Positions 40,980 to 62,958 of a stretch of 64,000 bases of DNA are shown here, piece after piece. The notes under the pieces were generated by a model that saw only the letters and a list, made by a program, of their open reading frames with translations, made no database searches and had not been told where the DNA came from. This DNA is from Thermoleophilia bacterium (lineage in GTDB: Bacteria; Actinomycetota; Thermoleophilia; Miltoncostaeales; Miltoncostaeaceae). Every line of letters begins with the position of its first letter. Within the stretch, counting starts at the first letter, position 1. Made by a program: the position numbers and the translations under genes. Where the stretch lies: positions 1 to 64,000 of the forward strand of contig JANQPH010000011.1 of assembly GCA_028285405.1 (NCBI GenBank). The letters are read 5' to 3'.

Positions 40980-41434
40980 ATGTATCAGCCGGTGCGCTCA
41001 GGCGGGCAGCGCAACGCCAGTGGCCGGGTCAGCTATAGCGACGGGAGCATCGAGAACGTCACCGACAACGCCGACTGCCTCGACGACGACCTCGGTCTCG
41101 TCGCTGGCACGTCGTGGCTGTTCGCCCGCGAGGAGTTCGACGGTGCGCTCGACTACCTGGTCGTTGACGAGGCCGGGCAGATCGCGCTCGCGGATGTCGT
41201 CGCGGCTGGTGCCGCGGCCCGGAACCTCATCATCCTGGGTGACCCGCAACAGCTTCGGCACGTGACCCAGGCCATCCATCCCGAGGGTGTGGGCGGCTCT
41301 GTACTCGAGCACGTGTTGGGCGAGGATGAGACGGTGCGGCCCGAGCGTGGGCTGTTCCTGCCGACGACATGCGGCCGATCTCGGGCCTCTCCGGGCTGGT
41401 CGAAGAAGCGGAGCGTCAGCGCGTCGACCTGTGA
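40980..41434 (+). pseudogene. Remnant of a TM0106-type nuclease/helicase gene
   Basis: The frame 40980-41362 encodes only the middle of an SF1 helicase: SWLFAREEF, then YLVVDEAGQIALADVV (Walker B) and NLIILGDPQQLRHVTQAIHP (motif III), ending at ERGLF. It matches the full enzyme at 55859-59302 at about half of the positions. After a frame jump near 41357-41363, ADDMRPISGLSGLVEEAERQ aligns with the very C terminus of that enzyme (VDDMVLIATLCAFVEYAEVV). The nuclease domains, motif I and about 200 residues of the second helicase half are missing. It is a decayed, diverged paralogue, not a recent copy. Confidence 0.8.
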
Positions 41435-41468
41435 GGAGCGCCGAGCCCGCCACTAGCCTCGGCTCGCC

Positions 41469-44363: not shown

Positions 44364-45890
44364 TTGGGGTTCCCGGACACAAGCGCTTGGCCTCCCGCGA
44401 GGCTCTTTCCAGTCGTCGGAATTCGCGGGCAAGAGGAGCAGGAGCGCCGCGCGACCTCGGCGCTGCTCGCGGTAATGGCGGCCGTACCCGAGTTCGCCAA
44501 GTCACTGCTCGGGTACCTGCGCGCCCCAGCCGGCCGTGTACACACCTATGCCGAGGTGCCCTTCGAGCTCCAAGACGGATCGAATCTTCGGCCCGATGGG
44601 GCCGTGGTCGTCGAGCGCGGCAAGACCCACTGGGGATGCCTCGTCGAGGTGAAGACCGGGCGCGCGCAGCTCGACTCGAAGCAGATCGAGGACTACTGCC
44701 GTGCGGCAAAGGAGCACGGACTCGATGCCGTGCTCACCATCAGCAACGAGATCGCAGCCATGCCCGGCGAGAGCCCGGTCTCTGTTGATGGGCGCCGGCT
44801 GCGCAGCCTCGATCTTGCGCACCTCTCGTGGTGGCGGATCCTCACCGAGGCGATCACGCAACATGGGTATCGCGGCGTCTCTGACCCCGATCAGGCATGG
44901 ATCCTCGCGGAGTTCATCGAGTACCTGCAGCACCCCAAGTCCGGCGCGGGCTCGTTCGAGGATCTGGGCTCGGACTGGGTCGCCGTCCGTGACGGTGCCC
45001 GCCATCAGACCCTTCGCCGAGGGTCCGAGGCTACCTCGGTCGTGGCCCGCTGGGAGGAGTTCGCCCAGTACCTGAGCCTGGGTCTGTCGCAGGAGCTCGG
45101 GCGGGATGTGCTGCCGGTGTACCCGCGGAAGCTCGACCAGGCATCGAGGCGCGACAAGACGATGGATGAGCTGGTCGAGGACGGTCGGCTCGCGACCCGG
45201 CTTCGGGTTCCGGATGCGGTTGGTCCAATCGACATTCGCGCCGACCTGAGGGCGCGCCAGCTGACGACGAGTGTCGCGGTCGATGCTCCCCGCGAGGGCC
45301 GAGCCAAGACCCGAGTGAACTGGCTTCTTCGGCAGCTGCGCGACGCCGATGGGGGTCTGCGGCTCGAGGCGAGCTTCGTGGGTTCGCGACACTCGGCCAG
45401 CTGTCTCCTTGATGTCTGTCGAGACCAACCCGAAGCCCTCCTTCTGGACGGTGACCACAAGAGGGAGCCCCGGGCGTTCACCGTTGCGCTGACGAAGGAG
45501 ATGGGCAGGAACAAGGGCCGGGGAGACGCATCGTTCGTACGCGAGACCGAGCGCCAGCTCCTCGGCTTCTATCGCGACATCGTGCAAGACCTCAGTCCCT
45601 GGACCCCGCGTGCGCCGCGTGTCCGCGAGGGTGCGCGGACGACGCAAACGAGAAGTCCGCGGGTGCCCGAAGACCCACCTCAGCCGACCGAGGGTGCTCC
45701 CCCGCGGGAATCTCGGGACGGACAGGTGGAGATCAGGGAGGGGTTTGCGCCCAGTAGCACGCCAAGCGAACCCCCGCCGGCGGCAGAGCCACCAAGTGGC
45801 GCGGTCAGCCCGTTCGTCCCCGTGACTCAGCAGGCCACCCAGAGCGACAGCGACGCGGCTCCGTCAGGTAGCGACCGTAACGGAGGGTAG
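44364..45890 (+). CDS. Probable PD-(D/E)XK nuclease with disordered tail
   Basis: The 508-residue protein has an N-terminal PD-(D/E)XK-like core: E64, D78 in LRPDGAVVV, the E95-x-K97 pair in CLVEVKTG, then QLDSKQIEDY and AVLTISNE. This is the restriction-endonuclease fold that cuts DNA with two metal ions. The middle region (about 190-410) is of unknown fold (FAQYLSLGLSQELGRDVLPV, ETERQLLGFYRDIVQDLSPW). The last 90 residues are proline/serine-rich and disordered. TTG 44364 is the start, weakly supported. No methylase accompanies it directly, so how the host is protected is unclear. Confidence 0.7.
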   Translation: MGFPDTSAWPPARLFPVVGIRGQEEQERRATSALLAVMAAVPEFAKSLLGYLRAPAGRVHTYAEVPFELQDGSNLRPDGAVVVERGKTHWGCLVEVKTGRAQLDSKQIEDYCRAAKEHGLDAVLTISNEIAAMPGESPVSVDGRRLRSLDLAHLSWWRILTEAITQHGYRGVSDPDQAWILAEFIEYLQHPKSGAGSFEDLGSDWVAVRDGARHQTLRRGSEATSVVARWEEFAQYLSLGLSQELGRDVLPVYPRKLDQASRRDKTMDELVEDGRLATRLRVPDAVGPIDIRADLRARQLTTSVAVDAPREGRAKTRVNWLLRQLRDADGGLRLEASFVGSRHSASCLLDVCRDQPEALLLDGDHKREPRAFTVALTKEMGRNKGRGDASFVRETERQLLGFYRDIVQDLSPWTPRAPRVREGARTTQTRSPRVPEDPPQPTEGAPPRESRDGQVEIREGFAPSSTPSEPPPAAEPPSGAVSPFVPVTQQATQSDSDAAPSGSDRNGG

Positions 45891-45972
45891 GAGCGGCCCG
45901 CGGCCGACTCGCGTAGAGGTGTCGCAGCCGACGCGCATTCCGTTTCGTTTGCGCGCCCGACAGAATCTGCCC

Positions 45973-46494
45973 GTGCACGACGACTCGGACGCGCACGACG
46001 AGCGGCTGCTGCAGGAGGGGCGAATCGGAGATGCCCTCGCCCGCTACCTGCCGGCGCTCCACGCGCGTGCGTTGGCGCGCCTCAAGCCACATCAGCGGGA
46101 CTACGCCGATGATGTCGTACAGAACGCGGTCCTTCGGGTCTGGCGGGAGTACGACGGCGGCAAGCGGTGGGACCACCCGTTTCGGGTGATCGTCCACCGT
46201 CGACTCTCGTGGACGCTGCTCGATTTCTTCGGCGGCCGTCCGGACGAGGTCCAGTTTCCGGAGGACTTCGACCCGAAGGACCTCACCGACCATGTGTCGG
46301 ACGTCGAGGATCGTCAGTACGTTGAGCAGATCATCGCCGAGTTACCCCCGCGCGAGCACGAAGTCGCCCGTATGCGAGTCATCGAGGATCGCACTCCCGC
46401 CGAGATCGCCGAGCTTCTCGGTATCGAGTCGAACGCCGTTCACCAGGCGCTCTTTCGTGCGTGGCGCCGACTCGAGGAGCGGCTTCGTGGCTGA
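45973..46494 (+). CDS. ECF-like sigma factor, module A
   Basis: GTG 45973 is chosen because it places the protein start as in the paralogue at 47825-48328; an upstream in-frame GTG at 45919 exists. The 173-residue protein resembles group-4 sigma-70 proteins: a region-2-like DDVVQNAVLRVWREYDGGKRW, then region-4-like IIAELPPREHEVARMRVIED and RTPAEIAELLGIESNAVHQA with an HTH. It should direct RNA polymerase. It ends RLRG* and overlaps the partner gene by 8 bp (GTGGCTGA). Shared opening DERLL-EG marks it as a paralogue of the opposite-strand sigma gene. Confidence 0.78.
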   Translation: MHDDSDAHDERLLQEGRIGDALARYLPALHARALARLKPHQRDYADDVVQNAVLRVWREYDGGKRWDHPFRVIVHRRLSWTLLDFFGGRPDEVQFPEDFDPKDLTDHVSDVEDRQYVEQIIAELPPREHEVARMRVIEDRTPAEIAELLGIESNAVHQALFRAWRRLEERLRG

Positions 46495-47062
46495 GCCGCC
46501 CGAGCAGCTCCTCGCGGAGTTCGCGGCCGCCTGGTCTCGTGGCGAGAACCCAGACCCGCGCAGCTTCCTCGAGCGTGCCGACGACTCCGAGGCGCTGGCG
46601 CGTCTGATCGACCGCTACCTCGTATCGGCACCCGCTCGCGAGCCAGCCCCCGAGCTCGTCGAGGCGATCGACGCCTGGCTGCAGGGAGAGCCGACGCTGT
46701 CGACGATCCGTGCGAGGCGCGGCCGGCGGGTCGACGATGTCGTTGCGGCGATCATCCGGGGCTGCGGCCTGGGGCGCGAGCGAGCCAGCAAGGTCAAGGA
46801 GTACTACCAGCGCCTCGAGTCGGGCTTGCTCGATCCCGCCGCCGTTCAGCCGCCGGTGTTCGCCGCGATCGGTGAGGTCCTCGGGATGCCCGTCGCCGAG
46901 CTCCCGATCTGGCCGGGAGCGCCGGCCGAGGGGGCGCCCGTCCTGCGACCCCGACCGGACGCGGCGGCTGAGGGCGCGCCTGCTCCCCTGGTCGCCGAGC
47001 TGATGTCCTTGGCCGCCGACCCACCCGACGAGGTTGACCGGCTCTTCGGGGTATCGCCCTGA
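46487..47062 (+). CDS. Sigma partner protein, module A (possible anti-sigma/HTH regulator)
   Basis: The 191-residue protein starts GTG 46487, within the sigma gene. Residues 1-75 (MAEPPEQLLAEFAAAWSRGENPDPRSFLERA) form a helical domain shared with the short protein at 47599-47832. About 75-140 look like a divergent HTH (RARRGRRVDDVVAAIIRGCGLGRERASKVKEYYQ, ESGLLDPAAVQPPVFAAIGEVLGMP). The C terminus is acidic/proline-rich and partly disordered. It could be the anti-sigma, a repressor or a substrate of the ImmA/IrrE protease that follows. Function is not proven; the strong overlap implies stoichiometric production with the sigma factor. Confidence 0.65.
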   Translation: MAEPPEQLLAEFAAAWSRGENPDPRSFLERADDSEALARLIDRYLVSAPAREPAPELVEAIDAWLQGEPTLSTIRARRGRRVDDVVAAIIRGCGLGRERASKVKEYYQRLESGLLDPAAVQPPVFAAIGEVLGMPVAELPIWPGAPAEGAPVLRPRPDAAAEGAPAPLVAELMSLAADPPDEVDRLFGVSP

Positions 47063-47097
47063 CAGAGCGTCGCGTTGGTCACCCGGTCGGTGTCGCG

Positions 47098-47586
47098 GTG
47101 CTCGACGAGTACGCGGCGTGTTTCGGGGAACCGTCGGTCCCCGTGCCGATCGACGAGATCGCGGTCGATCTCCTCGGCCTCCGCGTGCATCTCGTGGAGG
47201 ACCTGCCCTTCTCCGGCGCTCTCTATCCCGCCGAGCGCCTCGTGTGCCTCTGCGCATCCGAGGCGCGCGAGAGCGAGGGCCGGCGACGCTTCACGCTCGC
47301 GCACGAGGTCGGCCACTGGGTCCTGCACCACCGCCGCCGCCCGGGGGCCGCGGGGGACGTTCACGTGCTCCATCGGGACCACACACCCGGAAGCCGTGAT
47401 CCCAAAGAGCGCGAGGCGAACACGTTTGCCGCGGAGCTGCTGATGCCGGAAGGCGACGTTCGCCGCGCCTTCTCGGACGGTCTTGATGTCGAGGTCGCCG
47501 CGGCGCGGTTCGTGGTCTCGCCCGTGGCGATGCACTGGCGGTACTTCAACCTCGCCCTCGTCGAGGACCCGCCCCCGCAGGCCTGA
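47098..47586 (+). CDS. ImmA/IrrE-family metallo-endopeptidase
   Basis: The 162-residue protein has the HExxH zinc motif in FTLAHEVGHWVLHH and the downstream EREANTFAAELLMP that supplies the third ligand. The rest matches ImmA/IrrE: VPIDEIAVDLLGLRV and RYFNLALVED. ImmA of conjugative elements and IrrE/PprI of Deinococcus cleave repressors upon DNA damage or stress. Here the nearest candidates are the sigma partners next door. The GTG start at 47098 could be preceded by a CTG at 47059 overlapping the partner stop, giving a longer N terminus. Confidence 0.85.
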   Translation: MLDEYAACFGEPSVPVPIDEIAVDLLGLRVHLVEDLPFSGALYPAERLVCLCASEARESEGRRRFTLAHEVGHWVLHHRRRPGAAGDVHVLHRDHTPGSRDPKEREANTFAAELLMPEGDVRRAFSDGLDVEVAAARFVVSPVAMHWRYFNLALVEDPPPQA

Positions 47587-47598
47587 CCGCACCGCGAG

Positions 47599-47832
47599 TC
47601 AGTCGTCTCCGTTCGGCGGCATCGAGACCTCTCGAAGCCACCTGACGACGAGCTCCCGTGTCTCCCGGCTCGGCGGCTGGCCCGGAGCTGTCCTGAGGTA
47701 CGCGTCGAGCATCCGCCGAAGGACGGGGGCCTCCTCGCCGGCGCGCTCCAGGCAGGGGCGCGGGTCGGGCGTCTGGCCACGCGCGTGAGCCATCGCGAAC
47801 TCGTGGAAGAGCTGTTCGACCGGTTCAGCCAA
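47599..47832 (-). CDS. Sigma partner protein, module B (short)
   Basis: The 77-residue protein starts at TTG 47832. Its sequence (MAEPVEQLFHEFAMAHARG, PDPRPCLERAGEEAPVLRRM) matches the N-terminal domain of the module-A partner at MAEPxEQL-EFA--RG---PDPR--LERA, with more conserved positions around it. It lacks the HTH-like half. It overlaps its sigma gene by 8 bp in the same TGGCTGA arrangement as module A, which strongly supports the TTG start. It should be made together with the sigma factor and may hold it inactive. Confidence 0.6.
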   Translation of the reverse strand: MAEPVEQLFHEFAMAHARGQTPDPRPCLERAGEEAPVLRRMLDAYLRTAPGQPPSRETRELVVRWLREVSMPPNGDD

Positions 47833-48328
47833 GGATGGACTCCCGCAGCCGCTCGTAGATGCGAAGCAGCTCTTGGCGGACCTCGGCCCGGGGCCTGCCG
47901 AGGCGACTCGCGACCGCGTCGACCGAACTCCCCTCGAAGAAGATCGCCTGGGCGATCTGCGTCTGTTCGGCCGTGAGCAACTCGAGGAACCGTTGGAACT
48001 GCTCGGTCGATGTGACGGCCCCCTCTGTGACCGTCTCTCCGTCGAGGCTCGAGCGCGACTCGCCCGACTGGCTGAGCGTGCAGCTCGCAAGGAGCGCACC
48101 GAGTCGTGCATGGAGGATGGCGCGGATCGGCCGCCCGAGCTCGCCGAGCCCGAGCCATTCTCGATGCACCTTGGTGACGCATTCGCGCACGATGCCCTCG
48201 GCGGCCTCGTCGTCGAGGCGCGTTCGCGCCCGGGCGATCAGCGAGCTGTAGTGGCGGGCGAATACCAAGGCGATCTCGCCCTCGGCCAGGAGTCGCTCAT
48301 CTTCTGCATCGTCCGGCCGAGGGGTCAT
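47825..48328 (-). CDS. ECF-like sigma factor, module B
   Basis: The 167-residue protein begins ATG 48328 with MTPRPDDAEDERLLAEGEIA, aligning with module A (DERLL-EG-I). Region-2-like residues are less typical (EGIVRECVTKVHREWLG). The C-terminal HTH is present (LLTAEQTQIAQAIFFEGSSV and AVASRLGRPRAEVRQELLRIYERL). It diverges from the methyltransferase-helicase genes across a gap with a perfect inverted repeat, and overlaps its partner downstream by 8 bp. It probably controls its own expression and/or the divergent operon, but this is inference. Confidence 0.65.
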   Translation of the reverse strand: MTPRPDDAEDERLLAEGEIALVFARHYSSLIARARTRLDDEAAEGIVRECVTKVHREWLGLGELGRPIRAILHARLGALLASCTLSQSGESRSSLDGETVTEGAVTSTEQFQRFLELLTAEQTQIAQAIFFEGSSVDAVASRLGRPRAEVRQELLRIYERLRESILG

Positions 48329-48365
48329 GGAGACGAATCCCCACCCGGGTTCGGCCGCCTTACGG

Positions 48366-48398
48366 CTCGCCTGGGTGTGTGCAACACACCCAGGCGAG
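48366..48398. promoter_or_regulatory. Perfect 15-bp-arm inverted repeat in divergent gap
   Basis: The arms are ctcgcctgggtgtgt and acacacccaggcgag with a 3-base GCA centre. It sits 37 bp upstream of the module B sigma start and 85 bp upstream of the methyltransferase start. It may be an operator for a dimer or tetramer, or a transcript hairpin. Confidence 0.75.
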
Positions 48399-48483: not shown

Positions 48484-51400
48484 GTGGTGTTCTTCCAAGC
48501 GGCTCGTTCCGTAGGATCCTCGTCGGTGGATGCCAGCGTCGTGACGTCGGCGATCGACGAGAGGTTTGGCGCCTCGCAAGAGGCGCCTGACGCTGGCCCA
48601 CTCGGGCGCCCGAAGATCTGGCGGACACCTGTCGGGGTTGAGCTCGCGGTGGTAGGTGCTCCGACAGCGGCTGGTGGAGCAATGACCGACGCATGGCGAC
48701 GCCAGCGGCGCGGGCGTGCTACTCCGCTCCTCCTCTTCGTCGGGACGGACGACGCGCTGTTTGCCCTGGGTCCCGAGGGCACCCATCCACGGCCAACCGA
48801 GGTGGACTCGGCCCTACTCGGGACCCTCGACTTCCTCGCTGAGGAGACTGATCTGCAGCGGGCTGTTGAACGCGTTGCAGACGCCGTCACCGAGAATGCA
48901 GTTCAGGCCGATGCGCAGCCCGGCATTCGTCCCTCAGGGTTGTTCACACCGCATTATCTGTTCTCTCGACTCCCGCGCACGGCGAGTTGGCCAGAGCTCG
49001 AGGAGCGGGCGCCCAATCGCATCCCTGCAGATTGGGCCGGGCTCATGTCTGCGCTCGCGTATGACCTTCAAGAAGTCGACGACGGATACGTCGCAGTTCA
49101 TGGCGGGCAGGAGTTGGCGGTACTTCGGGCTCACGAGGATCATCGGGCGCTCGACTCGCCGATCGAGCAGCTCGATGATCTTCCATACCGACGCCTTGGC
49201 GAGCTGATGCGAAGGCACCGCCTGTCTTCGGGGCTGCTCGTCGCCGGGAGCACCATCCGACTGTTCGCCAGCGAGGGCACGACACGCCTACCTGAGCGAT
49301 ACCTCGAGTTCCGCTTGGACCGTCTGGAGTCGTCCGAGCGGCCATACCTCGGGATCCTTGCGCCAGGAACCCTCTCAGGCGAGCCCGAGCTCCAGCGGCT
49401 CCTCGTCGATGCCCGTCGCTACGGAGCAGAGCTCAAGGATGGCGTCGAAGAGCAGATCCGAGACGCCGCGTTGCCGGCTCTGGTCCGGGGCCTACTGCCG
49501 TTCGCCGAAGGCGACCCCGCCGATCCAGCTGTGAGGCAGGGCGTGTCGGATGCCGCTCTGACACTGCTATTCCGGCTCGTCTTCCTACTCTATGCAGAGT
49601 CCGCCGACTATCTGCCCGTTCGCTCGAGCCGCTACGAGGCGCACTCCATCCAGCGCCTGGCCGCTGACGCGCGTGAGGCGGAGAAGATGGGGTTCGACGC
49701 CACGGCGACCGGCCTCTGGGACGCGAGCCGCACCCTCGTCAACGCAATCCGTACCGGCAACACGACGTGGGGAGTTCCTGCGTACAACGGCGCACTGTTT
49801 GCGCCATCAGGTTTTCCTGGCGCGGCCTTCCTCGCCCGAGCGAGCCTCAGCGATGCCGAGCTCGGGCCTGCACTCGTTGCGCTCGCCTACGGCGCGGGGA
49901 ACGACCTCGACAAGGGTGGACCAGGGATCGACTGGGCCGGACTCGGGGTCGCCCAGATCGGTTCGATCTACGAAGGCTTGCTTCACCTTCGGTTGGCCTA
50001 TGCCGAGCATGATCTCGGCTACGACAAGAGCCACGACCGGTACCAACTCGCCAAGTCGGACGATGAGGTCGCCCAGCCCGCAGGGTCGTGCTTTCTCCTC
50101 AGCGAGAGCGGGGGTCGCAAGTCCGGTGGCGTCTTTTACACGCAGGAGCTCTTTGTCGACCATCTCGTTGCTGGTGCAATAGGCCCGCCGCTTGGGGACC
50201 ATCTCCAGAGCGTGCGTGAAATCGCGGCGCGGAATCCGGAGGCCGCGTCCGAAACCCTGCTCGACTTCGCAGTCGTCGACCCTGCGATGGGCTCCGGGCA
50301 TTTTCTTGTCGGGGCGCTTGACTTCCTCGCCGCGGAGATCGGCGCGTTCCTCCGTGAGGTACCCCTCAAGGGGATCAGCGAGCGCCTTGACGCCCTCCGG
50401 CGTTCCGCGGTAGTGGGCGATGCTCCTGAGCCGACTGACAGACAGCTTCTACGTCGGCTCCTGGTGAAGCACATGGTGTTCGGGGTTGATCGGTCCGAGA
50501 TGGCCGTCGAGCTAGCGAGGATCAGTCTCTGGTTGAGCAGCTTCGTCCCGGGGCTGCCGCTCAGCGTCCTCGAGGCGAACCTCAAGTTCGGCGACAGCCT
50601 GATTGGCGTCGACCGAATCGAGCGGATCACCGAGCGCGTCGGCCTACTCGCGCCACTCATCGAGCAGCCTCTCGGTGAGGCGGTGCGGCGGGTGGCGGAA
50701 GCCGCCGAGCACGAGGATTTGACGCTCGATGAGGTCGAGCAGACGCGTACCGCACTCGAGGCAGCTACTGCAGCTGCTGCTCCTGCGGGGCGGCTACTCG
50801 ACGCATATACGGCAATCGCGTTCGGCGCTACTGGTGCATCCGACTTCGTGGACGACGACTCGCGGGCTCGTTCCCTCATTTCTGGGGATGTGCAGGACGC
50901 GACGCCCAGCTTCGTGTCGATCGCAGAGCTTCGTCAGCAGCTCGCGTTTCTTCACTGGCCCCTTGCATTCCCTCGAGTCTTCGCTCGCGAGAACCCAGGC
51001 TTTGACGCCGTTGTCGGCAACCCGCCCTGGAACGAGATCACGGTAGAGCGGACGGGGTTCTTCATTCAGCACGACCCCGGTCTGGGCAGCGTTCGACAAG
51101 CTGAGAAGCGCGAAGCGCGGATTGCGGCGCTGGCTGAGCGTTTCCCTGAGCTGGAACGCGACTACGAAGAGGCCGTCGAGACGACTGCCCTACTGCGGAG
51201 TTTCTTTCGTTCGCCCAGCGGGGACTACGAGTTGCAAGGATCGGGGGACCTGGACCTGTATGAACTCTTCTGTGAGCGCTACGGGGCACTGCTTCGCGAT
51301 GGCGGTGGCTTAGGGGTCGTTCTCCCGCGCAGCGCTTTCTATATCGAGGGAACGGTGGGCTTCCGACACTGGCTGTTTAGGTCCGCCTCGCCCCGCCACA

Positions 51401-52491
51401 TCGACACCATCCTCAATGCTGGTCGGTGGGCGTTTGATATGGAGCCGAGGTACACGATCGCGCTTACGGTGTCCCGACGGGCGACACCTGCGACGGACCA
51501 GGTGATCGCGCTGTCGGGACCTCACTCAAATGAAGCCGCCTTTGTAGAGCGCTCGCCGGTTCCGGTGGCTCATGGGGCGCTTCGTCGTTGGACGAGGCCG
51601 CACAAGGCAAGGCCATCGGATCCGTCCTCCTGGGAGGTGCCCCTGCTTGCCAGCCCACCCGCTCGAGATCTCTACGACGCGCTCATGACGTTGCCTCGCT
51701 TCGACGAGGGCGGCGCCGGCGATTGGCGAGCCTTCGCCGCGACAGAATTCCATGTGAGCAACGATCGCGACTACATCCGCCCGCAAGGCGACGCCGAGGT
51801 TTGGACCGGACGCACCTTTGAGCAGTTCCAGCCATGGTTCGGCGACGTCGCCGGCTACTTCGACTTCGACGAGGGATGTGAACGTCTCGAGCGGAAGCGG
51901 CAAGGCTCAGATGTCTGGAAGCGTGCGTGGCCGGAGGCGCTCGGCGATCCGGCTACGTTGCCAGCACGGGGATACCGGGTTGCCTTCCGGGATGTGACCC
52001 GCGCATCAGACACGTGGACGGTGCGCGCCTGCACCATTCCGCCACAGACCTTTCTCACCAACAAGGCACCGTATCTCGTGCTGCCCGAGGGTGGACGTCC
52101 GGCCGGGGCGCTGCTCCTAGGTGTCATGAACTCGTTGGTCTTCAACTGGATGGCCCGCCGCATCGTCGAGATCAGCCTGAACTTCTTCGTTCTGAACATG
52201 CTGCGGGTGCCGGAGATCGCGCTTGATTCCACGCACGCAGAGGCCGTCATTACCCCTGCTGCTCGCCTCCAGGCAGTTCACGAGGACTATCGGGAATGGG
52301 CGGAGAGTCTGAATGTCGACTGCGGCCCGCTATCGGGCGAGGAGGCCGACGAACTCCGGAGAGGGCTCGAGGTCGCTGTGTTCCGCGCATACGGTCTTGG
52401 TGCTGACGAGCTTGATGTTGTCTTGGAGGACTTCACAGAGAGGGCCGTCACGCCTGAGGCTCGCGCCGCGTTGCGGCAGGGCCTCTCATGA
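48484..52491 (+). CDS. Large Eco57I/PglX-like adenine-specific DNA methyltransferase
   Basis: This 1335-residue protein has a long N-terminal region (about 1-590; SGLLVAGSTIRLFASEG, LEFRLDRLESSERPYLGILA) as in large type IIG/PglX-like enzymes. Methyltransferase motif I, VVDPAMGSGHFLVG, is at about 597-610, and motif IV, VVGNPPWNE, has Asn846. A specificity-like C-terminal part follows (AFRDVTRASDTWTVRACTIPP, NSLVFNWMARRIVEISLNFFV). It should methylate adenine N6 in a target motif. No PD-(D/E)XK core is obvious, so cutting is presumably left to partners. The GTG 48484 start is weakly supported; ATG 48682 is an alternative. The helicase start overlaps its stop by 4 bp (ATGA). Confidence 0.88.
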   Translation: MVFFQAARSVGSSSVDASVVTSAIDERFGASQEAPDAGPLGRPKIWRTPVGVELAVVGAPTAAGGAMTDAWRRQRRGRATPLLLFVGTDDALFALGPEGTHPRPTEVDSALLGTLDFLAEETDLQRAVERVADAVTENAVQADAQPGIRPSGLFTPHYLFSRLPRTASWPELEERAPNRIPADWAGLMSALAYDLQEVDDGYVAVHGGQELAVLRAHEDHRALDSPIEQLDDLPYRRLGELMRRHRLSSGLLVAGSTIRLFASEGTTRLPERYLEFRLDRLESSERPYLGILAPGTLSGEPELQRLLVDARRYGAELKDGVEEQIRDAALPALVRGLLPFAEGDPADPAVRQGVSDAALTLLFRLVFLLYAESADYLPVRSSRYEAHSIQRLAADAREAEKMGFDATATGLWDASRTLVNAIRTGNTTWGVPAYNGALFAPSGFPGAAFLARASLSDAELGPALVALAYGAGNDLDKGGPGIDWAGLGVAQIGSIYEGLLHLRLAYAEHDLGYDKSHDRYQLAKSDDEVAQPAGSCFLLSESGGRKSGGVFYTQELFVDHLVAGAIGPPLGDHLQSVREIAARNPEAASETLLDFAVVDPAMGSGHFLVGALDFLAAEIGAFLREVPLKGISERLDALRRSAVVGDAPEPTDRQLLRRLLVKHMVFGVDRSEMAVELARISLWLSSFVPGLPLSVLEANLKFGDSLIGVDRIERITERVGLLAPLIEQPLGEAVRRVAEAAEHEDLTLDEVEQTRTALEAATAAAAPAGRLLDAYTAIAFGATGASDFVDDDSRARSLISGDVQDATPSFVSIAELRQQLAFLHWPLAFPRVFARENPGFDAVVGNPPWNEITVERTGFFIQHDPGLGSVRQAEKREARIAALAERFPELERDYEEAVETTALLRSFFRSPSGDYELQGSGDLDLYELFCERYGALLRDGGGLGVVLPRSAFYIEGTVGFRHWLFRSASPRHIDTILNAGRWAFDMEPRYTIALTVSRRATPATDQVIALSGPHSNEAAFVERSPVPVAHGALRRWTRPHKARPSDPSSWEVPLLASPPARDLYDALMTLPRFDEGGAGDWRAFAATEFHVSNDRDYIRPQGDAEVWTGRTFEQFQPWFGDVAGYFDFDEGCERLERKRQGSDVWKRAWPEALGDPATLPARGYRVAFRDVTRASDTWTVRACTIPPQTFLTNKAPYLVLPEGGRPAGALLLGVMNSLVFNWMARRIVEISLNFFVLNMLRVPEIALDSTHAEAVITPAARLQAVHEDYREWAESLNVDCGPLSGEEADELRRGLEVAVFRAYGLGADELDVVLEDFTERAVTPEARAALRQGLS

Positions 52492-55400
52492 CCTCGTCCT
52501 CCGATGCGACTCGACCGACGCTCGTCGACAACTTCGAGGACGGGTGGTCGCACGAGGCGGCGTTAGCGGCGCTGTTGGAGCGGGTCCCCGATCAGGAACT
52601 GTGCGTCGCGACCGGATACGTCAGCCTGGTCGGCCTTGACACACTCGCGCAAGTCGTCGATGAACCTCGCACCGTCCGAGTCCTGATCGGCGCCGTCTCA
52701 CGGCCCGATGAGGTGAACGTCGGTGTTCGGCTCCGGGTCGGGGCACAGTTTCGCGAGCAAGACGAGTCGCTGAGGCGGGAGCGTGACCGCGACAACTTCC
52801 CGCCAGCGCGACGGGCACGGCTTGAGCGAGCCCGCGCATTCCTTCAGCGCGAGGACGTCGAGGTCCGGCGCTACACACCGCAGTTTCTCCACGGCAAGAC
52901 TTTCATTGTTGGCGACGAGGTCACCCTGTGCGGATCGGCCAACCTCACCGCCGGGGGACTCAAGTCGAACCTGGAGCTTAGCCTGGTCGACTACAACGTC
53001 GGACCGACGAAGCTCTTTCGAAGCTGGTTTGACGCAAGGTGGTCAGAGGAAACCGAAGAGCTCACGGAGCAGCTAGTCGAGCTGCTCGCACCGCCCCCAG
53101 GCGATGCTCTGCCCTACGACGTGTTTCTTCGCGCTCTGGATGAGTTCTTCGGCGCGGAACCCGAGGATGAGCCGACGACGGCATCGAGGCTCGAGCTGGC
53201 TCGGTTTCAGCGGGATGGCTACGCACGCGCTGCGGCGATCGCTGACCGCTATGGCGGCGTGGTCTACGCCGACGGCACCGGTCTGGGCAAGACGTACATC
53301 GGTCTGCGCTTCGTTGAGGAGGCAGTCGAGAAGCGCAGAGAGCCGGCGGTGGTGATCGTCCCGGGGCAGCTCAAGCGGAGCTTTTGGGGCGCCGCTCCGG
53401 CTGAGCAGCAACTGCACTTCGATGTCGTCACTCATGACGAGCTTGCCCAGGATGTGCAGCTAGCCGAAGGTGTGTCGAGCAGACACCTGCTGCTCGACAA
53501 GGACCACTATCGCCTTGTCGTTGTCGACGAGGCGCAGGCATTCAGGAATCCGCAGACTGCACGACACCAAGCCCTGCTCCGGCTGATCGGGGGCAGTCAG
53601 AAGCGGGTCGTCCTGATGAGCGCGACCCCCGTCAACAACTCGCTGTGGGACCTCTATCACCTCATTTCGACATTCGCTGCTTCGGACAATGCGTTCGCCG
53701 AGTCCCCCCTGTTCATCCCAAGCCTTGAGCGCTTCTTCGTTCGATCCGGCGCGAACGATCCGAGCCAACTCTCCCCGTCTCGACTTTTCTCGCTCCTCGC
53801 CCGCGTAGCGGTTGGTCGTCCGCGGACGTTCGTCGAGCGCTACTACGAGGGCGACGAGATCGCGGGTCAGCCCGTGCGTTTCCCCTCTCCTGAGTACCAC
53901 ACAAGCCGCTATCAGCTTGACGAGGTCTACGGCGGGCTCTTCGAGGCAATCGACGACGTGCTTTCCCGACTCCGGTTTGCCCGGTACCAGCCGGCGCGCT
54001 ACCTGCGCCCCGAGGTGGTGCGGAACTTGCCTGTCGAAGAGCAAAAAGCTGCGCACGCCGCTGCCGCACGTGAACGATCTCTTGCCGGCCTGCTCCTCTC
54101 CGGGCTGCTCAAGCGATTCGAGTCGTCTGCCGCCGCAGCCCGGAAGACGGTAGAGGCGCTGATCGCGTCGCACACCGAGTTCCTGGCTGCGATCGAGCGC
54201 GGCCTTGTTCCCACCGCCGAGGAGCTCGGCGAGCTCGTCGATGGTGACGATGGGACCCTTGGCGCGCTGATGGACGCACTCCCCTCCAACTCGACGCGGC
54301 ACGCGCGCAATTACCGCGACGAGCTTGCCGCCCACACTTATGAGGACCTCAAGCTGCTGCAGGAGCTGCTGGAAGAGATCCGCGAGCCCGAGCCTGGTCG
54401 GGACCCGAAGGTGGCTGCCCTGGTGGAGATCCTCGGATCGGTGCCCGAGGGAGAAAAGGTGGTCGTGTTCGCAAGCTTCGCGGACACTGTCAACTACATC
54501 GATGCTGCGCTCTCGGACGACTCTTCGCTATCAGCCAGCCGAGACCGGATCACGATCGCCGGGCGGGACACGACTCCTGAGCAGCGCGTGCGGGCGACGG
54601 CGCGTTTCGCACCCGATACGTCTGGACTTGCCGGCGTCGGGCTTCCGCCTGGTGAGACGGAGGTCGACCTCCTCGTTTCGACTGATGTCTTGAGCGAAGG
54701 ACAGAACCTCCAGCAGGCATCGACGCTGGTCAACTTCGACCTGACCTGGAATCCGCAGCGAATGGTCCAGCGGAATGGCCGCATCAATCGCTTGGGAGGA
54801 CAGCCCACCATCCACCTCCACACCCTCGCGCCCGACGACGCAGAGCTCGAGCGGTTGCTACGCCTCGAGGCTCGCATTCGAGACAAGGTCCAGGCGGCCA
54901 ATGCCGCTCTTGGGATGGAGTCTCGGATCCTCGACATCGACCCTGAGGAGCGCGTGTTCAGTGATGTCAATCCGTTCGGAGGCGAGGGTTCCGACGCAGA
55001 TTCTGCGACGGCGGAGTTGCGCAAGGAGTTGCAGGCTGAGGCCGCTGCTGGGGAGGGCCTAGACATCGAGATCGAGGAGGCGGCTGGAGCGGCAGCCGAG
55101 CGCTATCGGCTCGAGCTCAAGCGCGCCCGAAAGGAGGGAGATCTCGACCGCGTACGGCAGCTTCCCTTCGGCATCGGCTCGTGCTTCAGCCAGGGAGCGG
55201 GGATCCCGTCGCGAGGCACCCCCGGTGTGTTCTTCGCGACTCGAGTTCACGGCGAGCGGGTCTGGCGGTACGTCACGCGCGGCGAGGTGCGGAGGGACGA
55301 GCTCCCGATGCTGCAGGCGATTGAGCCGGCGCGTGCGACTCGACCCGAGGAGTACGAGACCTCCGTCGTACTCGACGCCTGGGAACTCGCCGAGGCCGAC

Positions 55401-55760
55401 ATCCTTCGTGAGTTCAACGAGGAGCCGGTCGACGAGCCGACGATTCCACCAGCGCAGGCGTGGGCTCTGGAACTCCTTGCAGGGGTGAGTCTTCCGGGTG
55501 ATCAGCAGCGCGAAGCTGCCGCGTCTCTGCGTGTGGGGCGTCGCCATTCAGTTGTGAGGGCACTGGTCGTGATCCGCCGTCGGCTCGACGGAAACGAGAT
55601 CGATCGCTTCGAGGCAGCGCAGGAGGTCGCGGGGGTCGTAGATGACTTCGGACTGCGACCGACCGAGCCGGTCGAGATTGAGCGGCGGCACATCAATGCG
55701 GACGACATCGAGGTGGTCTGCTACTGCGTCGTCCGTCCGCCCGGGGGCGACACGGAGTAA
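52488..55760 (+). CDS. SNF2-family helicase with N-terminal PLD-like nuclease domain
   Basis: In this 1090-residue protein, residues about 15-210 are a phospholipase-D-like domain with the HKD motif (His135-x-Lys137 in FLHGKTFIVGDEVTLCGSANL, SNLELSL). The helicase core follows: Lys268 in ADGTGLGKTYIGLRF, DEAQ in VVVDEAQAFRNP, SATPVNNSLWDLYHL, then the second half with VVFASFADTVNYID, STDVLSEGQNLQQ and QRNGRINRLGG. One HKD is visible, so the nuclease would need to dimerise. It overlaps the methyltransferase by 4 bp. The pairing of a large adenine methylase with such a helicase resembles class 1 DISARM (drmMI/drmD) but no drmA, drmB or separate drmC was found. Confidence 0.85.
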   Translation: MTSSSDATRPTLVDNFEDGWSHEAALAALLERVPDQELCVATGYVSLVGLDTLAQVVDEPRTVRVLIGAVSRPDEVNVGVRLRVGAQFREQDESLRRERDRDNFPPARRARLERARAFLQREDVEVRRYTPQFLHGKTFIVGDEVTLCGSANLTAGGLKSNLELSLVDYNVGPTKLFRSWFDARWSEETEELTEQLVELLAPPPGDALPYDVFLRALDEFFGAEPEDEPTTASRLELARFQRDGYARAAAIADRYGGVVYADGTGLGKTYIGLRFVEEAVEKRREPAVVIVPGQLKRSFWGAAPAEQQLHFDVVTHDELAQDVQLAEGVSSRHLLLDKDHYRLVVVDEAQAFRNPQTARHQALLRLIGGSQKRVVLMSATPVNNSLWDLYHLISTFAASDNAFAESPLFIPSLERFFVRSGANDPSQLSPSRLFSLLARVAVGRPRTFVERYYEGDEIAGQPVRFPSPEYHTSRYQLDEVYGGLFEAIDDVLSRLRFARYQPARYLRPEVVRNLPVEEQKAAHAAAARERSLAGLLLSGLLKRFESSAAAARKTVEALIASHTEFLAAIERGLVPTAEELGELVDGDDGTLGALMDALPSNSTRHARNYRDELAAHTYEDLKLLQELLEEIREPEPGRDPKVAALVEILGSVPEGEKVVVFASFADTVNYIDAALSDDSSLSASRDRITIAGRDTTPEQRVRATARFAPDTSGLAGVGLPPGETEVDLLVSTDVLSEGQNLQQASTLVNFDLTWNPQRMVQRNGRINRLGGQPTIHLHTLAPDDAELERLLRLEARIRDKVQAANAALGMESRILDIDPEERVFSDVNPFGGEGSDADSATAELRKELQAEAAAGEGLDIEIEEAAGAAAERYRLELKRARKEGDLDRVRQLPFGIGSCFSQGAGIPSRGTPGVFFATRVHGERVWRYVTRGEVRRDELPMLQAIEPARATRPEEYETSVVLDAWELAEADILREFNEEPVDEPTIPPAQAWALELLAGVSLPGDQQREAAASLRVGRRHSVVRALVVIRRRLDGNEIDRFEAAQEVAGVVDDFGLRPTEPVEIERRHINADDIEVVCYCVVRPPGGDTE

Positions 55761-55858
55761 GTGTCAACGCTTGATGGCGGGACAATCGGCTGCTCAGCGA
55801 AGTGCGGCGCCGTGACCTACTAAGGACAACTGATGCAACTGGCCGAAGACTCATCGGC

Positions 55859-58800
55859 ATGAACCGAGAGTTCGCGCCGGAGCCGGAGGAAGGGGCGCCG
55901 CCTCGGCTGCTGACGCCGTCGAAGATCACGGCATGGCTCGACTGCCCCCACTACCTGACCCTGAAGCACGGGGGTGAGGGTGGCGGGGAACCGCGGGCGA
56001 GCTACACGGTGGGGTCGTTCGCTCGCCTACTGCAAGACAAGGGGCTCGAGCACGAGGCAGCGGTCGAGGCGGCCTACGTGGATTCCGGGGCACGTGTTCA
56101 CCGTGTCGACGCCAAGCAGCCCGACGAGACGTTCGCGCAATGGGCCGATCGTGTGGCGAGCGAGCTCGGGACCGACGCCGACGTGCTGTTCCAGATGCCG
56201 CTGGTCCACAACGGGATCCGCGGTGTCGCCGACTTCTTGGAGCGGGTGATCGAACCCGACTCCGGAGGGGTTCGGTGGGAGCCGGTTGACGCCAAGCTCG
56301 CGCGGCGCAGTGCCGCGCCCGGGCACGTGCTTCAGCTCTGCTTCTACGCGGAGGCACTTGGGGCCGCGACCGGTGAGGCTCCGCACCAACTCCAAGTGTC
56401 TTTGGGGTCCGGGGCCACGGACGCCGTCGGGTTCGAGGAGGTCCGCCCATATTGGGACCGTCTCCGAGGTCAGCTTGCAGCGGTGATGTCATCGGGCCCA
56501 GATGGTCGGACCCGACCCGAGCCCTGTGACCACTGCGGGTTCTGCGAGTTCCAACCCAGCTGCGAGCAGGTGTGGCGAGACGAGGACTCTCTCGTCTACG
56601 TGGCCGGCATTCGCAAGACGGATCGTGTCGCCCTCGAGGCGGCCGGCGTGTCCACGATGGCGGCGCTTGCCGATCGGGCGGGACCGGTTGGCGACCTGCG
56701 GGACGAGCGCCTCGAACAGCTGCAGGTCCAGGCCCAGCTTCAAGTGCAGGCGCGTGCCGCTCCAGAGAGGCCGCCGCCGATCCGATTGATCCCGGCGGGG
56801 GAGCATCCCGAGTGGGGCCACGGGATGGAACGGCTCCCGGCTCCCGACGATGGCGACGTCTTCCTCGACTTCGAGGGCCACCCGTTTTGGCGCCCGGATC
56901 GAGGCCTGTTCTTCCTGTTCGGCTACATCGCCCAAGACGACGCCGGGGCATGGCAGTACCACCAGGAGTGGGCGCACGACGAGGCCGAGGAGCGTGACCG
57001 GGTCCGCGAGCTGGTGCGCTTCATCCGGGATCGACGCGCGGCACATCCTGGGATGCACGTGTACCACTACAACCACACGGAGCGCTCGGCCCTGGAGACA
57101 CTTGCGGCCGAGCACGGGGTAGTCGAGCGGACGCTCGCCTCGCTCGTGGAGAGCGGCGTCTTCGTCGACCTCCTGGTCGTGGTTCGCAACGCGATGCAGG
57201 TCGGCGTCGAGTCCTACAGCCTCAAGAACCTCGAGGTGCTGACCGGCTATGAGCGCGACCACGAGATCGACAAGGGCGCCGGTGCTGTCGTCGCCTACAA
57301 CCAGTACACGCATGACCACAACGACGAGCACTTGGCCGCGATTGCCGCCTACAACGAGGACGACGTTCGGGCCACCCGTGCTCTTCGCGACTGGCTGATC
57401 GAGCAGCGCCCGAGCGGGATCGACTGGCGCGTCGATCCGGAGGCCAAGGCCGAAGACGAGGACGAGATCGACGCACTTGTCGAAGCTCTCGCGTCCCATC
57501 CGGACGGGTCACCTGAGCACCTCATGTCGGGCCTCCTCGGATACTGGCGCCGCGAGTGGCGCGCGTACATCGCGCCGCTGATCGGTCTCCTCGGCAGTGA
57601 CCTCGATGATCTACTTGCCGACGCCGATGTCCTCGCCGGTCTTGCGGACCCACAGCGGTTCGGCCGTACAACGCGCACCGGTAGGCCGGCGAAGTGGCCT
57701 GGCCTCCGGCTCTCGTTCCCGGCGCAGGAACTCGGCCGTGCCTTCGCCGAGGACTCCCCACCATCCGTGATCTACACGACACCGGATGGCCTCCTGGGGT
57801 TCGTCGAGGTCGACCGACTGGACATCGCCAACGGTGAGATCGATCTCGTTTGGACGGGCAAGGCCCAGGAGCTCGGCGCCGCGCCCAGCGCAGTGGTGCT
57901 CAACGAATGGGTGTCTCCGAGCTCGAAGTGGGACACCTTGCTCGATCTTGCTCGCCAAGTGCTCGACCCAACGGCGAACGGAGCGCCCAACCCGGTCACG
58001 ATGGCACTGCTCGAAGCCGCCCCACCTGTGTTCGCCGATCGATCCGGCATGGACAGCCTCTCCGACGGCGTTGACGAGCTCGCAGACCTCGCCTGCCATC
58101 TGCAGTCGAGCGTGCTCGGAGTACAAGGACCACCAGGCACAGGCAAGACCTTCCGCGGTGCACACATCGCAAAGGCACTCGTGGCCGAGGGCAAGCGGGT
58201 CGGGATCATGGCCATGAGCCACCACGCCATCGACAACTTCCTCGAGGAGATCGTCGACGTGTTCGCCGCCGACCCATCGGAGGAACTGCGCGCGATCCGA
58301 AGGAGGGGGGCGCCCCCCGATGGGGGACTGTCGGGTGTGACGTACACCACAAAGAACGACGCCCTTGCCCGCGAGGAGTTCAACGTTGTCGCGGCAACGG
58401 CATGGCAGTTCGCGGGTCGCGATCTCCGCGCTGCCCCGGTCGATGTGCTTCTGATCGACGAGGCGGGTCAGCTTGCCCTGATCGATGCGGTCGTCGCCTC
58501 GATGGCAGCCGAAAGCGTGGTGCTACTCGGTGACCCGCTCCAGCTCCCGCAGGTGGCTCAGGCGAAGCATCCTGGCGACAGCGGAGCCAGCGCCCTCGGT
58601 CACCTGCTCGGTGACCAGGTCACCATCTCGTCCGATCGAGGCGTCTTCATTGAGGAGACCCGGCGGATGCATCCGGATCTCTGTCGGTTCATCTCGGAAC
58701 GCATCTACGAGGGCCGGCTGTCGAGCCACGTCGATTGCGAGCGCCAGTCAACGGGTCACGGCACTGGCCTGCGCTGGATTCGGGCCGAGCATTCGGGGTG

Positions 58801-59302
58801 CTCCACCGAGTCGGACGTCGAGGCGACGATCGTTGCGAACCACGTCCGGTCGCTACTCGGCATCAACTGGGTCGACAAGTCGGGCGCCACGCGACATATC
58901 GAGCCCAGCGACATCATGGTCGTGGCTCCGTACAACGATCAAGTGCGACTCCTCCGCGAGTACCTCGACGCCGACCCGGCGACCCGCAGCGTCCAGGTGG
59001 GTACCGTCGACAAGTTCCAGGGGCGCCAAGCGCCCATCGTGTTCTTCACGATGGCGAGCTCGAGCGCCGAAGACATGCCGCGGGGAACGGAGTTCCTCTT
59101 CTCTCGGAACCGGCTCAACGTCGCCGTGAGCCGCGCCCAGTGCCTCGCCTACCTCGTCTGTACCGAGGATCTGCTTTCGAGCCGCGCTCGCACTGTGGAC
59201 GACATGGTCCTGATCGCGACACTCTGCGCGTTTGTCGAGTACGCAGAGGTCGTCAGCTATCCGGCACCGGCTGCTGCGGCATCCCGACGACCCGGTCGGT
59301 AG
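55859..59302 (+). CDS. TM0106-family RecB-like nuclease/DEDD exonuclease/SF1 helicase
   Basis: The ATG at 55859 (MNREFAPEPEE) is used. The 1147-residue protein shows three modules. Residues about 20-260 are RecB-like with GVADFLERV and VDAKLARR (catalytic acid and lysine), and a Cys cluster C223, C226, C229, C235 (CDHCGFCEFQPSC) likely holding an iron-sulfur or zinc site. About 330-540 is an RNase H-like DEDD exonuclease (Asp337 and Glu339 in FLDFEGHPFW; NEDDVRATRALRDWL). About 740-1147 is an SF1 helicase (Lys763 in GPPGTGKTF, LLIDEAGQLALIDA, LLGDPLQLPQV, QGRQAPIVFFT). Such proteins may process DNA ends in defence. It begins 98 bp after the PLD-helicase gene and probably belongs to the same unit. 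Confidence 0.85.
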   Translation: MNREFAPEPEEGAPPRLLTPSKITAWLDCPHYLTLKHGGEGGGEPRASYTVGSFARLLQDKGLEHEAAVEAAYVDSGARVHRVDAKQPDETFAQWADRVASELGTDADVLFQMPLVHNGIRGVADFLERVIEPDSGGVRWEPVDAKLARRSAAPGHVLQLCFYAEALGAATGEAPHQLQVSLGSGATDAVGFEEVRPYWDRLRGQLAAVMSSGPDGRTRPEPCDHCGFCEFQPSCEQVWRDEDSLVYVAGIRKTDRVALEAAGVSTMAALADRAGPVGDLRDERLEQLQVQAQLQVQARAAPERPPPIRLIPAGEHPEWGHGMERLPAPDDGDVFLDFEGHPFWRPDRGLFFLFGYIAQDDAGAWQYHQEWAHDEAEERDRVRELVRFIRDRRAAHPGMHVYHYNHTERSALETLAAEHGVVERTLASLVESGVFVDLLVVVRNAMQVGVESYSLKNLEVLTGYERDHEIDKGAGAVVAYNQYTHDHNDEHLAAIAAYNEDDVRATRALRDWLIEQRPSGIDWRVDPEAKAEDEDEIDALVEALASHPDGSPEHLMSGLLGYWRREWRAYIAPLIGLLGSDLDDLLADADVLAGLADPQRFGRTTRTGRPAKWPGLRLSFPAQELGRAFAEDSPPSVIYTTPDGLLGFVEVDRLDIANGEIDLVWTGKAQELGAAPSAVVLNEWVSPSSKWDTLLDLARQVLDPTANGAPNPVTMALLEAAPPVFADRSGMDSLSDGVDELADLACHLQSSVLGVQGPPGTGKTFRGAHIAKALVAEGKRVGIMAMSHHAIDNFLEEIVDVFAADPSEELRAIRRRGAPPDGGLSGVTYTTKNDALAREEFNVVAATAWQFAGRDLRAAPVDVLLIDEAGQLALIDAVVASMAAESVVLLGDPLQLPQVAQAKHPGDSGASALGHLLGDQVTISSDRGVFIEETRRMHPDLCRFISERIYEGRLSSHVDCERQSTGHGTGLRWIRAEHSGCSTESDVEATIVANHVRSLLGINWVDKSGATRHIEPSDIMVVAPYNDQVRLLREYLDADPATRSVQVGTVDKFQGRQAPIVFFTMASSSAEDMPRGTEFLFSRNRLNVAVSRAQCLAYLVCTEDLLSSRARTVDDMVLIATLCAFVEYAEVVSYPAPAAAASRRPGR

Positions 59303-61200: not shown

Positions 61201-61210
61201 ACGGTGGACG

Positions 61211-61516
61211 CTATCGAGGGAGCGGGACGAGCGGAGGAGGTGAGGCCCTCTCCGGCCTCCGCGGCTCTCGACGCGTTTCTCGGCGCCTGGCACTCGATGC
61301 GACCACTGCCGTTGAGTTGGCGCATCCCGGCGACTGGGTCGTGGTGCGTCGGCCGACCATTGGGTTGACAGAGACAGACGTGGGTGGTCGCGGACCTTCC
61401 TCTGCAGCCCTGCGGTAGAGCTCGACGACCCTCTCGAGAACACGCGCTCGCCAGTCGGCGAGGGTCTCCTCGGGGATCCGGGACTTGCCCACCGTAATGC
61501 TGCGCGCGTCTCTCAT
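61211..61516 (-). pseudogene. Truncated paralogue of the 62416-62805 gene
   Basis: The start MRDARSITVGKSRI, followed by EETLADWRARVLERVVELYRR, matches the gene at 62416-62805 (MRDERSITVDKLRLI, ALVGWRERVLERVEELYQQ). About 14 residues are missing between the two blocks, and everything after GPRPP is unrelated. The upstream DNA is also duplicated (see repeat). It is likely inactive or novel only by truncation. Confidence 0.65.
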
Positions 61517-61624
61517 CCGACTCCCGTCCGGTGAAGGTTCATCTCGCTCGACTCACACTCGCCCCACCAGTCCGGCGGATGGTTGGCACGCCTTACGGAT
61601 CCCGGAAGCTCAGCCGCTCCGAGG
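61485..61624. repeat. Diverged duplicate of 62774-62896
   Basis: The first part, including the start codon and ribosome binding site, is close to 90 percent identical by eye over about 67 bp to the region at 62774-62840. The rest, up to the common GCCTTACGGA and CGCTCCGAGG blocks, is more diverged. It shows a segmental duplication of promoter plus gene start. Confidence 0.7.
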
Positions 61625-62805: not shown

Positions 62806-62896
62806 CCGACTCCTGTCCGGTGACGATTCGTCTCGCTCGACAGTCGGGCGGACGGTCTTCCGGCCTTACGGACTTCGGGATCTGACCGCTCCGAGG
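62774..62896. repeat. Partner copy of the duplication at 61485-61624
   Basis: The copy covers the upstream region and first codons of the small gene ending at 62416. The order of conserved blocks is the same as at 61485-61624, with several small gaps. Confidence 0.65.
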
Positions 62897-62958
62897 CCGT
62901 CACGTAAGGCGCCACCGAGCCACGCAGGACTCATCGATCAACAGTCGAGGAGGTCTTG

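Follow-up and report, generated by a model that had tools for sequence, protein, structure and literature searches.

A three-gene unit of sigma factor, helix-turn-helix partner and ImmA/IrrE-type protease in Thermoleophilia: a candidate protease-released sigma switch

The DNA analyzed here is a 64-kb stretch from Thermoleophilia bacterium (GCA_028285405.1, contig JANQPH010000011.1, positions 1 to 64,000 of the forward strand; the entire stretch is called the window), and the subject of this study is a group of five genes in its right-hand part. On the plus strand, the gene of an extracytoplasmic function (ECF)-like sigma factor (sigma A; 45973 to 46494, with a GTG start at 45973 and another possible GTG at 45919) is followed by that of a 191-amino-acid partner protein (partner A; 46487 to 47062) and that of a CapP-like ImmA/IrrE-type (M78) metalloprotease (47098 to 47586, starting at GTG 47098 or CTG 47059); together they form module A. 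On the minus strand lie partner B (77 amino acids; 47599 to 47832), whose end is separated by 12 bp from that of the convergent protease gene, and sigma B (47825 to 48328), together module B. A first-pass annotation of the window had described two paralogous sigma-partner pairs on opposite strands that face each other around the protease, and coordinates and strands agree with this description. Sigma A and sigma B start with VHDDSDAHDERLLQEG and MTPRPDDAEDERLLAEG and are identical at 54 of 170 positions (32%, E = 4e-17); the partners start with VAEPPEQL (A) and LAEPVEQL (B) and share 48% identity over 67 columns (E = 4e-17), so that the claimed paralogy of both members was borne out. Also correct was the observation that each sigma gene overlaps its partner gene by 8 bp with a matching junction, i.e., GTGGCTGA at 46487 to 46494 and TTGGCTGA on the reverse complement of 47825 to 47832. 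The shared junction was rejected as an extra signal: among 55 called partner genes, both window pairs counted, overlaps of 8 bp (13 genes) and 4 bp (16 genes) are common throughout the family, and the 8-bp junction therefore reflects an inherited gene order.

Gene order, conservation, domain make-up, helix-turn-helix (HTH) fold class, protease family and the promoter-like element described below, with its distribution, were computed directly. Sigma A passes the cut-off of the NCBIfam sigma70-ECF profile (TIGR02937; 64.6 bits, cut-off 42.9) and matches Pfam Sigma70_r4_2 (1.6e-12), while Pfam region 2 alone stays below its cut-off. Partner A by itself has no Pfam or NCBIfam match, its comparison with solved structures by sequence gave no convincing match, and HTH_31 picks up 9 of 21 relatives, at 3.8e-4 for the best. 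The protein comprises an N-terminal helical domain (about residues 1 to 62), an XRE-type HTH (about 63 to 149), a linker and a C-terminal DEVDRLF tail. Residues 63 to 149 of its AlphaFold model (AF2; predicted local distance difference test score, 85.8) align with XRE domains at overall Z scores of 5 to 7, e.g., 3kxa (the best, 7.0), SinR (6.2 to 6.4), DdrO (6jq1, 6rnx, and 6rnz; 6.2 to 6.3) and the N-terminal domain of CapH (7t5u; 6.2 over 62 residues); further XRE domains fit no worse than CapH, and the Z scores of the modeled domain are indicative of a shared HTH fold and of no specific kinship. None of the 55 chains compared with the N-terminal domain reached a Z score of 5 (predicted template modeling score, 0.56), an outcome that does not by itself establish a new fold. 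The gene behind partner A had been annotated as an ImmA/IrrE protease, and its product indeed matches Pfam Peptidase_M78 (1.2e-17) and carries the HEVGH motif. Among PADLOC models the product fits capP best (5.1e-28; positions 11 to 153 of 242), and CapP (7t5t, 8.9e-11) is its sole match in the Protein Data Bank up to an E value of 0.1, so that by sequence comparison it appears nearest to CapP. The idea of module A as a LexA substitute was rejected; the genome has a LexA above the curated cut-off.

Module A is a three-gene unit found throughout Thermoleophilia. In a survey of 299 genomes of the class, which includes the genome of the window and accepted matches up to an E value of 0.01, partner A relatives were detected in 77 genomes, this one among them, with a weak tail of the list. 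Named records, which come from one scan with a single peptide pattern and are no census, belong to Miltoncostaeaceae, Gaiellaceae, Thermoleophilaceae and other Thermoleophilia. A search of 396 genomes of the phylum with the profile of the partner family returned 21 matches, i.e., the genome of the window, 13 relatives from the class, a single good match outside Thermoleophilia (G373) and six marginal ones that cover the profile only from position 105 on. No partner match was present in the phage collection or the plasmid collection searched. Of the 55 called partner genes, counting that of partner B, 54 are immediately preceded by a sigma gene in the same orientation, and 49 have an ImmA gene within 3 kb, in 36 cases on the same strand; at 12 loci (L102 to L105, L108, L111, L113, L117 to L119, L121, and L136) the ImmA gene is opposite in strand to the sigma-partner pair. 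A D-x-L-F tail terminates 51 of the 55 partners, and the four tailless ones are partner B, a fragment in G009, one protein cut short where its contig stops and another with DELDELLRGG as its last residues. The HExxH motif is kept in all 48 ImmA-like genes of more than 120 amino acids at the called loci. The genes around this triad of sigma factor, partner and protease vary: the families found among some 20 scanned neighbors include RecBCD/AddAB-like (L035 and L043) and type III restriction genes (L036 and L040), a transporter, a chaperonin, hydrolases and others.

Upstream of many sigma genes recurs a two-box, ECF-like element, [CT]GT[AC]AG followed after 18 to 19 nucleotides by GACT, which is asymmetric, oriented with its gene and has its boxes as far apart as is typical of sigma promoters. 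Across 59 sigma upstream regions, the rows of the window being excluded, our first pattern, [CT]GT[AC]AG-N17..20-GA[CT][TCG], was present in 30 (shuffled sequences: mean 0.8, maximum 4), and a relaxed pattern, which was devised after seeing the upstream rows of the ARPP-1 genes treated below, in 35 (mean 2.6, maximum 8). With f1 denoting the family of our genome, taken as Miltoncostaeaceae, and f2 to f11 other families, the first pattern precedes the sigma gene in 7/9 rows of f3, 3/3 of f11, 3/4 of f8, 6/8 of f7, 5/9 of f5, 2/6 of f9 and 2/18 of f1, and in 2/2 named Thermoleophilaceae records. Gaiellaceae-like rows show CGTAAGATC, 16 nucleotides and GACT, and then about 10 nucleotides to the start codon of the sigma gene. 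A strict form derived from these upstream regions, GTAAGAT-N16..18-GACT, was found at seven sites in 13 whole genomes (reversed control, 0), all of them at a sigma gene by coordinates and none elsewhere; six of the 13 genomes, ours among them, have no such site. In eight partner-bearing genomes of f3, the form CGTAAG-N19-GACT occurs 33 times (reversed control, 7). It is quite likely that the sigma factor reads this element.

Close forms of the element precede a gene elsewhere in these genomes, namely that of ARPP-1 (PF20208), which is encoded in 52 of the 299 genomes and is concentrated in those with a partner (32/77 versus 20/222 others; Fisher's exact test, 1.3e-9, uncorrected for kinship). 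Fifty of the 53 ARPP-1 matches had an upstream region that was examined. In families f1, f3, f5, f7, f8, f9 and f11, the first pattern was present before 28 of 40 ARPP-1 genes versus 0 of 10 in f2 and f4 (shuffles, maxima of 4 and 2), and the relaxed pattern before 36 of 40 versus 0 of 10 (maxima of 6 and 4); in two of the four remaining misses the gene start is cut or misplaced. For the ten ARPP-1 genomes of f2 and f4, neither the class search nor the profile search revealed a partner. The first box co-varies by family between the two sets of upstream regions: before ARPP-1 it reads GTAAG in 22/22 sites of f1, f3, f8 and f11 and GTCAG in 6/6 sites of f5, f7 and f9, and before the sigma gene all matching rows of f5, f7 and f9 have GTCAG and all those of f3, f8 and f11 GTAAG, with one row of each kind in f1. 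In G255, the triad is on one contig and the ARPP-1 gene with its element on another, both at distances above 250 kb from the ends of their contigs, and the shared element there is thus not due to adjacency. Exact or near-exact sites lie in front of ARPP-1 in G009, G236, G003, G051 and G055 and, slightly varied, in G106 and G162, and in front of the gene of a protein of about 225 amino acids in G009, G051 and G085; several others have no called gene behind them. Two further loci may be mentioned. In G003, a PLD-HerA type gene (L199, 1576 to 3027) has the same element upstream. In G009 (contig C1, about 1,390 kb; L050/L206), a second, broken triad consists of partner and protease fragments. Its neighbors are an SNF2-NOV helicase and a Schlafen/AlbA gene, and close by lie an ARPP-1 gene and two element sites that diverge from each other.

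The genome of the window has six exact CGTAAG-N19-GACT sites (reversed control, 0), five of which are clustered within 3.1 kb of contig C26, which bears the window, from position 61569 to 64649; the sixth, on C40 (10257 to 10285), is the sole exact match off this contig. Within the window, CGTAAG-N18..20-GA[CT]T occurs four times against 0.2 expected (0/100 shuffles reached four). A score matrix built from the sites of relatives and run over the window ranked first the predicted promoter of a 129-amino-acid gene (site 62842 to 62870, minus strand; gene 62416 to 62805). Second came a predicted promoter at 61569 to 61597 (CGTAAG-N19-GACT, minus strand), behind which the beginning of this gene is repeated in degenerate form (about 61480 to 61520, element included), and third the predicted promoter (62903 to 62931, plus strand) of a 112-amino-acid gene (62974 to 63312), whose product has a DUF4190 match below threshold. 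The fourth rank is an unrelated place (24801, minus strand), and the fifth is the near-exact predicted promoter of sigma B and partner B (CGTAAG-N19-GATT; 48336 to 48364, minus strand). A degenerate predicted promoter of sigma A (CGGAGG-N19-GACT; 45881 to 45909, plus strand, 9 nucleotides before GTG 45919) is sixth. Just past the right end of the window, exact sites at 64573 (minus strand) and 64621 (plus strand) precede the gene of a DUF4352 protein and that of a 201-amino-acid protein followed by a trypsin-like protease, respectively. Downstream of the site at 61569 lies a gene (59389 to 61374) whose product matches PADLOC HEC-05 at 3e-186; this protein, which we take to be DUF262-like, is possibly the one defense-type member of the regulon.

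Overall, we slightly favor the reading of module A as a three-gene sigma switch across Thermoleophilia in which the protease frees the sigma factor. In the resting cell, the N-terminal domain of the partner would bind sigma A and keep it inactive, and its HTH may additionally bind DNA. That the partner inhibits the sigma factor is probable. Single-stranded DNA (ssDNA) is a plausible signal by comparison with CapP and PprI/IrrE, albeit on balance a rather doubtful one. CapP, for which activation by ssDNA is described, cleaves CapH (PMC13373217), and ssDNA enhances the cleavage of DdrO by PprI in a loop of the C-terminal domain of DdrO (PMC10904395). By analogy with this cleavage of CapH and DdrO by ImmA-family proteases, the partner is the likely substrate here: upon the signal, the M78 protease would cut it in its HTH, linker or tail part, which we regard as fairly probable. 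The freed sigma factor would then direct RNA polymerase to CGTAAG-N18/19-GACT promoters (GTCAG in some families), i.e., to many of the sigma operons themselves and a small set of further targets, ARPP-1 in many genomes and other small genes in ours. Sigma B and partner B under their element would most likely be a target here and possibly provide an uncuttable feedback inhibitor. The complete scheme, positive release by cleavage of an anti-sigma/XRE hybrid that frees a sigma factor for ARPP-1 and often for its own operon, with the duplicated pair of this lineage acting as a protease-proof brake to terminate the response, can be put forward tentatively.

A number of observations weigh against this interpretation. 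Neither profiles nor fold comparison matched the partner or its N-terminal domain to an anti-sigma domain or family, and the weak rows among the 77 partner genomes reach E values of 0.009. The element is missing from 29 of the 59 sigma upstream regions by the first pattern and from 24 by the relaxed one; most misses in f1 are from the genus g4, in which CGTAAGG is present and the second box differs, and the degenerate site of sigma A at 45881 is matched by neither pattern. Nor is the looser form CGTAAG-N19-GACT rare everywhere: it was found 47 times in 20 genomes (reversed control, 21) and 5 times in six genomes without partner match (control, 4). With two mismatches allowed, the excess was smaller (159 versus 65), and in our genome there was none (7 versus 10). 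Our genome has no ARPP-1 match in the class survey. Eight genomes of f1 and f3 encode ARPP-1 with no partner found, apart from a marginal match limited to the HTH in a profile search (G244, 5e-4), and the element is nevertheless present in three by the first pattern and seven by the relaxed one, which is the chief finding against a strict coupling. Some of these genomes are incomplete, but G049 (98%), G230 (97%) and G100 (95%) are nearly complete; such elements without partner might stem from missing contigs or from a triad that was lost. For the second recurrent target, the protein of about 225 amino acids, three of six intact homologues, the more distant ones, lack the element.

Finally, the element might serve the partner HTH as its operator. 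The partner would then be a plain XRE repressor of the CapH/DdrO kind that binds CGTAAG...GACT, the sigma factor would be accessory, and the protease would relieve repression and not release a sigma factor. The DdrO/CapH fold of the HTH, the CapP-like protease and the enrichment of the element at few genes are all compatible with this alternative; on the other hand, the element is asymmetric, gene-oriented and spaced like a sigma promoter, and partner B has retained the N-terminal domain and its sigma factor, yet lost the HTH. We consider a simple repressor unlikely.

With respect to the operon next to module B, the first-pass annotation had proposed that the switch serves the adjacent defense genes, which according to family profile scans encode a type IIG-like methyltransferase (48682 to 52491), a PLD-SNF2 helicase (52488 to 55760) and a TM0106-type nuclease-helicase (55802 to 59302), all on the plus strand. 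The switch itself is supported as an inference by the co-occurrence of the three genes, the DdrO/CapH-type HTH and the CapP-like protease, but the link to defense is not: the element is absent upstream of the operon, where the best site before the methyltransferase gene ranks 332nd in the matrix scan of the window, compared with ranks 1, 2, 3 and 5 for sites before other genes; the best sites before the TM0106 gene and the gene at 44364 are 58th and 393rd. The motif CGTAGGATC near 48511 was rejected as a methyltransferase promoter, with no GACT box at the right distance and no well-scoring site there. The methyltransferase has relatives in 12 of the 299 genomes, ours included. The triad adjoins them in the window and in G009 (on the same strand, with an NYN gene in between) and is 2.3 kb away in G213, and such proximity, together with the type III restriction genes beside the triads L036 and L040 and the PLD-HerA gene with element in L199, speaks for a role in the control of neighboring defense genes. 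In the other nine of the 12 methyltransferase stretches, some of which end at contig ends, no triad was called, and the scanned neighbors of other triads include many unrelated genes. A fixed tie of the triad to the methyltransferase operon was rejected as a rule, most methyltransferase relatives being located away from a triad. The missing element and the lack of a called triad in most methyltransferase stretches argue against the operon as its output; control of these adjacent genes by the switch is very improbable, and from the promoter scan the methyltransferase/helicase operon appears to stand outside this regulon. Elsewhere in the window, a fragment at 40980 to 41456 is homologous to the TM0106-type helicase (3e-23); the gene behind it presumably encodes a RecQ-like helicase.

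Module B had been annotated as a second, paralogous sigma-partner module. The duplication stands, but module B is a truncated, fast-diverging duplicate of the sigma-partner pair and no equal second switch. Partner B is similar only to the first third of partner A (77 versus 191 amino acids) and thus consists of the N-terminal domain without HTH and DxLF tail. Sigma B remains below the cut-offs of Sigma70_r4 (3.9e-4) and TIGR02937 (28.4 bits; cut-off 42.9) and has no region 2 match, and its weak region 4 contains AEVRQ in place of the conserved recognition-helix motif, which is NAVDQ, NAVHQ or similar in most relatives shown. In a tree based on sigma and partner N terminus, sigma B groups with sigma A (support, 97) on a longer branch (1.20 versus 0.49). 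A search of 42 f1 genomes with sigma B matched, besides our own genome, the triad sigma factors of G119 and G055 and, weakly and elsewhere, G140 and G025. A comparable second module in G009 is more decayed. The long branch, the altered recognition helix, the lost HTH and tail and this further decayed counterpart suit a duplicate without a role that inherited its promoter from module A, an explanation that has about an even chance and is compatible with the sigma switch proposed for module A. Against mere decay, neither frame is disrupted and the codon use of both resembles that of coding sequence (own gene caller), and the element of module B is closer to the consensus than that of sigma A. 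Since module B keeps this element, it may be a target of the regulon. A decaying duplicate and a protease-proof brake fit the data on module B equally, and the brake on its own is quite unlikely. Between the divergent sigma B and methyltransferase genes, the sigma B element is immediately preceded by a perfect 15-bp inverted repeat with a 3-nucleotide loop (48366 to 48398), which has no other copy with fewer than three mismatches in the window and may represent an operator, a terminator or the end of an element.

Among known systems, CapH-CapP is similar with respect to the protease (7t5t, 8.9e-11; PADLOC capP, 5.1e-28) and the HTH fold of the partner (7t5u, Z 6.2). It differs in that a sigma factor is the first gene here (upstream in 54 of 55 cases), not a protease and repressor alone, in that the HTH protein additionally carries an N-terminal domain and a DxLF tail, in that our protease covers only part of the capP model (11 to 153 of 242 positions), and in that the predicted targets are not the adjacent operon. 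CapH-CapP sit beside immune operons, and among the neighbors scanned here such adjacency is seen at some loci and not at others. The IrrE/PprI-DdrO pair of Deinococcus likewise combines an M78 protease with an XRE HTH of the DdrO fold (Z 6.2 to 6.3), but the cited passages (PMC10904395) present DdrO as a repressor and mention no sigma factor, and our genome additionally has LexA. A literature search for ImmA/IrrE with anti-sigma or ECF terms found no ImmA-controlled sigma factor among the matches listed, a published ECF group of this kind being possible, and ARPP-1 was not mentioned among the literature matches listed. In ImmA-ImmR of ICEBs1, a switch of a mobile element, the protease gene also adjoins that of its HTH substrate, but this switch is not known to include a sigma factor. 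ECF sigma/anti-sigma pairs under proteolysis of the RseP or RasP type share the co-encoded sigma factor and presumed inhibitor and a promoter before the sigma gene; their membrane-acting proteases are from other families, and our partner matches no anti-sigma family.

To our knowledge, the known ImmA/IrrE pathways, i.e., CapP-CapH and PprI-DdrO, relieve repression, and the connection of an ImmA-type protease/HTH switch to a sigma factor is what we regard as new here. The role of such a regulator should not be read from adjacent defense genes. The regulon is predicted and testable because the likely promoter can be read from the sequence, and ARPP-1, which is known to us only by its Pfam name, gains a candidate regulator. 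If the proposed mechanism is true, a protease wired to its own sigma factor would give cytosolic proteases a novel means of switching on a transcription program.

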